From contig JAJOLG010000031.1 in the NCBI GenBank assembly GCA_021129445.1, forward strand, positions 1-7,086: a stretch of 7,086 nt of DNA, read 5' to 3'. The notes beneath the pieces were generated by a model. That model made no database searches. It worked only from the letters and a program-made list of their open reading frames with translations, and was not told where the DNA came from. Of the stretch, positions 2,155-7,086 are shown piece by piece (positions within the stretch are counted from its first letter, which is position 1; every line of letters starts with the position of its first letter). The translations under genes and the position numbers were made by a program. Source of the stretch: Candidatus Altimarinota bacterium. GTDB taxonomy: Bacteria > Patescibacteriota > Gracilibacteria > GCA-2401425 > JAJOLG01.

Positions 2155-2934
2155 ATGAGAGTTTTTAAGCTAATTGTTCCAGCATCATTAAATTATTCTG
2201 AAAGTGTAAGAATGGTTTCAATGGAAATTTGAGAAGATGCGGGTTTTTCAAAAAGAGAGAAAAATATGATCAGGCTTGTGATTGATGAGCTTTTTATGAA
2301 TGCGGTAAAATATTGATCGGATAAAGATTCATCAATAATGATTGAGTGATGATTTGAATGAGAAACAGTATTTTTTTCAATTGAAGATGAATGAAAATGA
2401 AAGCAAAAAGTATCTGCTGAGGATTTAATTAAAATTATTCAAGATGAAAAAGATAATACAAATTTAACAAAAACTCATTGAAGAGGTCTGGCTCAAATTA
2501 CATGAGTTATGACTTCATCTTTTAAGGTTAAAGAGTGAAAATTATGATGAATTAGAATAGAATTTTCTAAAAATAAATGAGAAAATGAACATGAAAGAAT
2601 AATAAAAAGAAATAAAAAAAGTAAGATAGAAGACGAAGTTAAACCTGTTGATAAAAGAGAATTTGATTTGGAATGAGAAGTTGATTTGAATAATTTAGAT
2701 AAAATTTCAGAGCCAATCCAAGAATATATTAATGATATTGATTTTCCTGTTGAAGTAGTTTTAAATTGTAAAAAAATAAAATTCTTTAATTCAACATTTA
2801 TTTGAAAAATTGCAGAATGGCATTCTGTTATTGATGGTTATTGATGAAAAATGATTTTAAAATGAATAAATGATGAAATTTTTGAGATTTTAGATTTGGT
2901 TTGATTGACTCAAATTTTAAATATTGAAGTTTAA
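2155..2934 (+). CDS. RsbW/SpoIIAB-like anti-sigma kinase domain fused to a STAS domain
   Basis: The 259-residue protein has two recognisable domains. Residues 1-140 form a GHKL-type HATPase of the anti-sigma serine kinase kind: N-box IDELFMNAVKYG with E45 and N49, G1 box EDEGKG (D78, G80, G82), and G2 box THGRGLAQI at 107-115. A charged linker of about 45 residues, rich in K, E, N and D, follows. Residues about 195-259 match a STAS (SpoIIAA/RsbV) domain: a beta strand FPVEVVLNC, then FFNSTFIG where N-S-T at 212-214 stands where D-S-S/T usually carries the phosphorylated serine, then GGKMILKGINDEIFEILDLVGLTQIL. In known systems these are separate proteins: the kinase phosphorylates the STAS partner and so controls a sigma factor or other target. 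Of 22 glycine codons 19 are UGA. The target is unknown; pilB lies 90 bp downstream in the same direction. Domain calls are confident, the regulatory role is inferred. Confidence 0.85.
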
Positions 2935-2960
2935 AAAATATTTTACCATAAAAAATAAAT

Positions 2961-2997
2961 TTTTCTGCATTTTATCAAAGCAGGAAAATTTTTTTTT
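2961..2997 (+). terminator. Likely intrinsic terminator after the kinase-STAS gene
   Basis: The arm TTTTCTGC (2961-2968) pairs with GCAGGAAAA (2980-2988) through eight base pairs with one bulged G at 2983, leaving an 11-nt loop. Nine T follow at 2989-2997. It lies 26 bp after the stop codon of the upstream gene. The stem is weak by usual standards but is one of the few GC-containing dyads in the non-coding DNA here. Confidence 0.5.
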
Positions 2998-2999
2998 AG

Positions 3000-3005
3000 T
3001 ATAAT
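3000..3005 (+). promoter_or_regulatory. Candidate -10 box of pilB
   Basis: A perfect TATAAT begins three bases after the T-run of the preceding terminator and lies 19 bp before the pilB ATG, which would give a very short leader. No good TTGACA-like -35 is seen about 17 bp upstream, and AT-rich DNA yields such boxes by chance, so this is tentative. Confidence 0.35.
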
Positions 3006-3024
3006 TTAAAAAAAATAAAAAAAT

Positions 3025-6197: not shown

Positions 6198-7086
6198 ATG
6201 AAACAAATATTTTTTCTTTTATCGTTTGTATTTTTATTTAGTTTTTCTTCTTGCGAGAAGAGTGATTTGAGTTTTTTTGATAATGGGGGGTTTTTGGCTG
6301 CAATCAACGGTAGTGACACAAATTCCAGTGAACCAGTTGATCAAACCACTAAAAACAAGCAAGAACGGGGTGATTTAATTAATCAAATAGTATTAAACAT
6401 TGATTGAAAAAATTGATATAAATTTTGAAAATGATATAATTGAGTTTCTGAAGATGATATTAGAAAAGGTAAAATATGGGAGTCTCAACTTGTTTATTTT
6501 AATGATACATTGATATGATCTATTTATTCTAGATTAGATTGAATATATATTTATTCAACAGATAATACAAATTCTCTTTTAAGAAGTTTAACAAAATATA
6601 CAAAATGAGATATAAATTTTGTATATAATTTTTTTCCTTCTTTTTCTAATGAAGGCACCGATTGAGAAAATAGTAATAGTATTGAATCTTTATATGGTAT
6701 ATATAAAAACAAATGGATAAGAGATTGCACCGAACAAGATTTTAAATGTGTATGAGCAGATGATGATTGTAAATATTGATTATGACAAAATGTTTGATGA
6801 TGTAATTTTTGATGCTGAGAATGAAATAATGTTGTCGTAGAAAGAAAAGACAAAAAGTGAAATAAAGTAATTTGTAATGAGAAAAGTATAATTTGACAAC
6901 AAGCAAAAGAAAATGCAGTAAAACAGTGTTTGACAATTTTTTATACATGAGCTGTAGCAGGTAATTCAATTTGTGTAGATGAAAATCCATCTTCAACTTG
7001 TGAGGATTGACAAGAAAAAGTATGTATGTGTTGAGCTTGAAACAGATGGGAGTTAGGTGCTTGATTAAAATTAAAAGTACAATGTG
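6198..7086 (+). CDS. Secreted cysteine- and glycine-rich lipoprotein of unknown function, C-terminus beyond window
   Basis: At least 296 residues are visible and no stop is reached. The N-terminus is a lipoprotein signal peptide: MKQ, a hydrophobic phenylalanine-rich core, and a lipobox FSSC ending at Cys19, so the mature protein should be lipid-anchored at the cell surface. A polar, low-complexity Ser/Thr/Asn/Gln stretch (about 34-60) looks like a tether. Residues 70-175 are rich in Gly, Tyr, Asn and Asp. From 177 on, 12 cysteines occur in 120 residues (177, 184, 191, 202, 206, 226, 244, 259, 268, 276, 278, 296), with clusters GGCNFGCGEG and VCMCGAG, suggesting a disulfide-stabilised or metal-binding extracellular module. 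I do not recognise the family. The four glycines before residue 70 all use GGN, while 24 of 29 later ones use UGA. A CGG codon, rare here, encodes residue 57. No Shine-Dalgarno precedes the ATG. Confidence 0.8.

Follow-up and report, generated by a model that had tools for sequence, protein, structure and literature searches.

A kinase-STAS fusion gene and its putative partner-switching module in a recoded member of the Gracilibacteria

The fusion gene and its two domains

Partner switches are known from the control of stress and sporulation in Bacillus, and they are normally read from separate proteins with changing affinities. The present study concerns a 7,086-nucleotide stretch of DNA (the window) from a Candidatus Altimarinota bacterium of the class Gracilibacteria, in which an RsbW-like kinase domain and a STAS domain, its presumed substrate, appeared to share one chain. 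Is such a fusion real, which proteins might it work with, and how might it act? The original prediction, made from the letters of the window, described a GHKL kinase with intact N, G1 and G2 boxes followed by a STAS domain without UAA or UAG. This description was borne out: the open reading frame is intact, the three boxes are invariant in 18 aligned fusions, Pfam places both domains above the gathering cut-off, and the arrangement is kept in relatives (Table 1).

Table 1. Features of the fusion gene and of the sequence that follows it (positions in the window)
Feature	Position	Strand	Details
Kinase-STAS fusion gene	2155..2934	+	259 aa, table 25, ATG...TAA; conserved in 18 other genomes
RsbW/SpoIIAB-type GHKL (HATPase_c_2) kinase domain, residues 1-141	2155..2577	+	Pfam 7e-11; model matches 1th8_A
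N box, residues 41-55, with E45 and N49	2275..2319	+	Invariant in 18 fusions
G1 box, residues 77-82 (EDEGKG)	2383..2400	+	D78, G80 invariant
G2 box, residues 108-115 (HGRGLAQI)	2476..2499	+	G109, R110, G111, L112, I115 invariant
Variable charged linker, residues 143-165	2581..2649	+	pLDDT <50 at residues 146-160; length and sequence vary in relatives
STAS domain, residues 166-259	2650..2931	+	Pfam 1.2e-7 for this part alone; PDB STAS folds, Z up to 13.9
S213 codon (TCA), predicted phosphorylation site	2791..2793	+	Aligns with SpoIIAA S58; invariant in 18 fusions
Terminator-like hairpin and U tract between fusion gene and pilB	2957..2998	+	Folding of 2935-3024

The window genome is a draft assembly of 77 contigs (completeness 94.8%) and the organism reads the stop codon UGA as glycine, and the fusion might therefore be suspected to be an artefact of assembly or of the TGA-as-glycine reading. 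TGA is the main glycine codon of this genome (142 TGA versus 37 GGN in the long open reading frames of the window), and the fusion gene, which has no interrupting stop under table 25, contains 19 in-frame TGA codons read as glycine. Six of these 19 (G54, G80, G109, G131, G132 and G250) fall on invariant-glycine columns in relatives that have no need of TGA, which supports the recoded reading. Moreover, a search of the class (353 genomes) showed that 18 other genomes, which represent five further families, carry this fusion as well, although 14 of the 18 belong to one family and are not independent. The genes of these relatives are read well with the standard code; some fusions were matched over their full length and others in two parts that share a frame, and none is interrupted by an in-frame stop. 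The original prediction had pointed to other Gracilibacteria as the place to look for this architecture and had taken its absence from all relatives as the sign of an assembly artefact. A single-frame fusion in 18 other genomes that do not require UGA to be glycine rules out this explanation, to which we give practically no chance.

Elsewhere in the window, a long open reading frame (6198-7085) has a lipoprotein-like start and 24 in-frame TGA codons and is open at the contig end; no family match above the cut-off was obtained for it in Pfam or NCBIfam. In a relative of the same order (L094, G286:C9), none of 13 long open reading frames ends in TGA (TAA 10, TAG 3), which, in this small sample, could be a hint that TGA was lost as a stop before it was recoded.

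The HATPase_c_2 match of the kinase part covers residues 8-121. With a profile of the fusions, the nearest solved sequences to this part are RsbW and SpoIIAB, and the predicted folds match SpoIIAB, RsbW and the kinase domain of Rv1364c; the model aligns with SpoIIAB (1th8_A) at Z 17.5 and rmsd 2.7 over 129 residues, and with 6m37_C at Z 16.8 and rmsd 1.6 over 112 residues. The three boxes, with the catalytic Glu and the Mg-binding Asn of the N box, and the SpoIIAB-like predicted fold are those of an RsbW/SpoIIAB serine kinase. Besides the residues given in Table 1, the invariant positions include S15, R19, G131, G132 and G250, and R19 aligns with an arginine of RsbW; the matching arginine of SpoIIAB is a known partner contact. 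The fusion is the sole RsbW-type kinase found in the window genome.

The STAS part was detected by Pfam at residues 170-257 (1.1e-6 in the whole protein), and the NCBIfam matches to spore_II_AA (1.9e-10) and ant_ant_sig (3.2e-10) are both below the family cut-offs. Its nearest solved sequences are SpoIIAA proteins, and S213 aligns with S58, the established phosphosite of SpoIIAA (FFNST to FMDSS in 1th8_B). The sequence profile, the predicted fold and the serine at this position are all those of STAS anti-anti-sigma proteins. The original prediction had placed the STAS domain at residues 195-259 and the phosphosite at S213/T214; the domain is present, with its extent corrected to about 166-259, and S213 is the aligned and invariant residue, T214 being only the neighbouring position. 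The serine is kept in fused and free STAS domains alike, and the position after it is Thr or Ser in the fusions versus mostly Lys in free STAS, so that the motif reads NS[TS] in the former and mostly NSK or DSK in the latter. In AlphaFold2 models, the mean pLDDT was 86 for the window protein and 87 for its counterpart in the same-order relative, with a pTM of 0.81 and 0.82, respectively. Because domains of free orientation would be expected to give a lower pTM, the two domains of the fusion are likely to have a set placement in the predicted structures.

Distribution and origin of the fusion

The named contigs of the relatives are labelled Candidatus Peregrinibacteria, Candidatus Gracilibacteria or Patescibacteria. 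The class search is the informative survey, rather than the even draw of 286 genomes from the wider phylum, which was too sparse for fusion families and returned only weaker kinase-only matches or separate kinase and STAS matches. A profile scan of genome contigs gave matches in this lineage only; the scan rests on a single peptide pattern, and fusions might also exist elsewhere. No relative of the fusion was found among the viral contigs scanned, and a viral origin was therefore dropped; plasmid relatives were likewise not found using tblastn.

In a STAS tree of few columns and several long branches, the 18 fused domains group together as a clade (99/98) that excludes the 36 free STAS domains. 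The kinase tree places the fused kinases in a single group, in which two free kinases (G604 and G303) are nested. In both of these genomes, a shortened kinase gene that lacks the STAS part lies immediately ahead of the PP2C gene (L106 8994-9443; L105 6052-6537). Because the nested free kinases have PP2C directly after them, the simplest reading would be that the fused STAS was gained once and lost twice.

Phosphatase, neighbouring genes and possible targets

In all 17 relatives with readable downstream sequence, the fusion gene is followed by a gene for a PP2C phosphatase, directly in seven and after a free STAS gene in ten, and this partner is a membrane phosphatase encoded by a separate gene. 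Ahead of the fusion, many members of one family carry a histidine kinase gene and a gene for a single-domain response regulator. The original prediction that neither a PP2C nor a sigma factor gene is visible is true of the window but not of the genome, which has one SpoIIE-type PP2C and one ECF-like sigma factor (191 aa). The PP2C (401 aa, 1.7e-38) is located on contig C33 (L045 3945-5150), not adjacent to the fusion, and has two predicted membrane helices and a stretch that, judged by eye, is HAMP-like. It scores best against the PP2C of the fusion operon in the same-order relative (344 bits), compared with about 270-300 bits against the other complete PP2Cs of the fusion lineage and at most 243 bits against those of unfused systems, and it is likely, from sequence comparison, to be the ortholog of the phosphatase in the fusion operons of the relatives. 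Besides the fused STAS domain, the window genome has one other, a free STAS on contig C31 in which the serine is kept. Because its PP2C scores best with those of the fusion lineage, the predicted module is present in the window genome, though scattered over contigs. This putative partner-switching module is complete, its kinase and its substrate domain sharing one chain.

Each of the 17 PP2Cs examined from the fusion lineage, that of the window genome (...STKWSW) included, ends in W-x-W within the last residues, whereas their counterparts in unfused systems of the class carry no more than one W close to the C terminus. This tail might serve in docking to the kinase or to a STAS domain; a search of open-access papers turned up no such motif.

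Several other genes were observed around these modules. The free STAS gene on C31 (L044 4916-6457) adjoins a gene for a PrsW-family membrane protein, and a PrsW-like gene stands beside the free STAS in several unfused systems (L046, L048, L050, L052 and L056), the assignment being Pfam-tested only in L044 and L046. A glycosyltransferase gene, of GT4 type by eye, is found near the fusion operon in many relatives, at L095, L098-L102, L106, L107, L114, L115 and L118. In G294, the PP2C gene after the fusion (L097 9789-11777) is split over short open reading frames, with two TGA codons reported in it, for which a frameshift, decay and local recoding are alternative explanations.

In the window genome, the fusion has murA and pilB as neighbours, unlike in the relatives. 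A gap of 90 bp separates the fusion gene from pilB, the next gene, which is encoded on the same strand. From this co-directional neighbour the original prediction considered a link to pilus control possible, and regulation of type IV pili by the fusion protein would fit this position. However, no pilB was found near the fusion in the fetched flanks of any of the 18 relatives, the conserved partner is the PP2C, which here lies on another contig, and a hairpin with a U tract separates the fusion from pilB (stretch 2935-3024, -14.6 kcal/mol, z -2.93), a hairpin that is absent from the listing of a stricter pattern scan. The flanks of the relatives and the intervening hairpin led us to reject pilus control through pilB, which we consider highly improbable.

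What, then, might the kinase hold? When 16 genomes of the lineage were searched for sigma region 3, a single match exceeded the cut-off in 14 of them, two did so in G297 and none in the window genome; the lone region-3 sigma factor of most fusion-bearing genomes is presumably RpoD. RpoD was not found in the window genome, perhaps because the assembly is incomplete (94.8%); in addition to the ECF-like sigma factor, this genome encodes a protein with sigma region 4, of the HARE-HTH kind by eye. Because most fusion-bearing genomes have one region-3 sigma factor, a target of the SigB or SigF type is unlikely, and the candidates left would be the primary sigma factor, an ECF sigma factor or a non-sigma effector. 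The primary sigma factor is the target of an Rsb system in Chlamydia (PMC4552016), and non-sigma effectors are the output of other partner switches (PMC7647112).

A proposed switch and its relation to known systems

Herein, we propose that the product of the gene is the kinase in a partner-switching module, with an RsbV/SpoIIAA-type STAS domain in the same chain, and that the chain would be regulated in cis through S213. We hold this reading, including the mechanism below, with moderate confidence. By analogy with SpoIIAB/SpoIIAA, the unphosphorylated STAS domain would sit on the partner-binding face of the kinase. The kinase would phosphorylate S213, in cis or across a dimer, and the STAS domain would then be released, leaving the kinase free to hold its target. 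SpoIIAB acts as a dimer, and phosphorylation in the fusion could therefore be across chains. The HAMP-type PP2C, upon an envelope or two-component signal, would dephosphorylate both S213 and the free STAS; the fused STAS would then rebind and the target would be let go. The free STAS would serve as a second antagonist, in trans.

Several observations speak against this reading. The main substrate may be the free STAS, the fused STAS is missing from two relatives, and in the window genome the PP2C gene lies away from the fusion. The fused STAS might instead be a docking or output domain for an outside partner (the free STAS, the PP2C or an effector), with the real switch operating between the kinase and the free STAS. 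Consistent with this alternative, a free STAS gene lies between fusion and PP2C in the ten relatives mentioned above, the window genome retains one free STAS with its serine, the motif next to the serine differs between fused and free domains, and two lineages lost the fused STAS yet kept kinase and PP2C. A pure docking domain, however, would not need the invariant S213 of the fused STAS, and in the seven other relatives the operon contains fusion and PP2C but lacks a free STAS; we regard the alternative as rather unlikely. The cis mechanism through S213 is preferred. In its most reduced form, which we put forward only tentatively, it would be a minimal intramolecular switch, in which kinase and antagonist gate each other and a membrane PP2C docking by its W-x-W tail resets them, with no SigB or SigF and with the primary sigma factor or a non-sigma effector as output.

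A conserved natural fusion offers a one-chain test of whether cis binding suffices to switch, and the relatives in which the STAS part was lost offer a natural comparison. Because no open-access paper was found that treats Gracilibacteria together with partner-switching, the fusion would also be an early signalling module to test in a recoded lineage with very small genomes. For the two-domain form, with its PP2C as a membrane protein of its own, no description in this lineage was found in the mostly open-access literature consulted.

The joining of a kinase to a STAS domain is not in itself new. The original prediction took kinase and STAS to be separate proteins in known systems, but Rv1364c of Mycobacterium tuberculosis, a single chain with PAS, PP2C, kinase and anti-anti-sigma domains (PMC7693655, PMC12143880), is a precedent. 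As told in PMC7693655, Rv1364c was reported to phosphorylate and dephosphorylate its own anti-anti-sigma domain (Greenstein 2009). In both proteins a GHKL kinase is followed by an anti-anti-sigma domain, and the predicted kinase fold of the fusion matches PDB 3ke6 at Z 14.0. However, the 259-residue fusion comprises kinase and STAS only and lacks a PAS domain, its PP2C stands apart as a membrane protein with a HAMP-like region, and most genomes show no target of the SigF type. The Bacillus systems RsbW/RsbV/RsbU and SpoIIAB/SpoIIAA/SpoIIE share with the fusion the types of kinase and STAS, the phosphoserine position and the PP2C partner, but their kinase and STAS are separate proteins and they have a dedicated sigma factor (SigB, SigF). 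The Chlamydia system (RsbW, RsbV1, RsbU; PMC4552016) is also a partner switch in a reduced genome and a possible model for a primary-sigma-factor target, although its kinase and STAS are separate and the target shown there is only guessed for the fusion. SiaABC of Pseudomonas aeruginosa (PMC7647112) resembles the module in its membrane HAMP-PP2C, kinase and STAS-like target, and its own output is non-sigma; it differs in having separate proteins and threonine 68 as phosphosite, and the SiaB structure (6kko_A) is a more distant match to the fusion model (Z 12.4).
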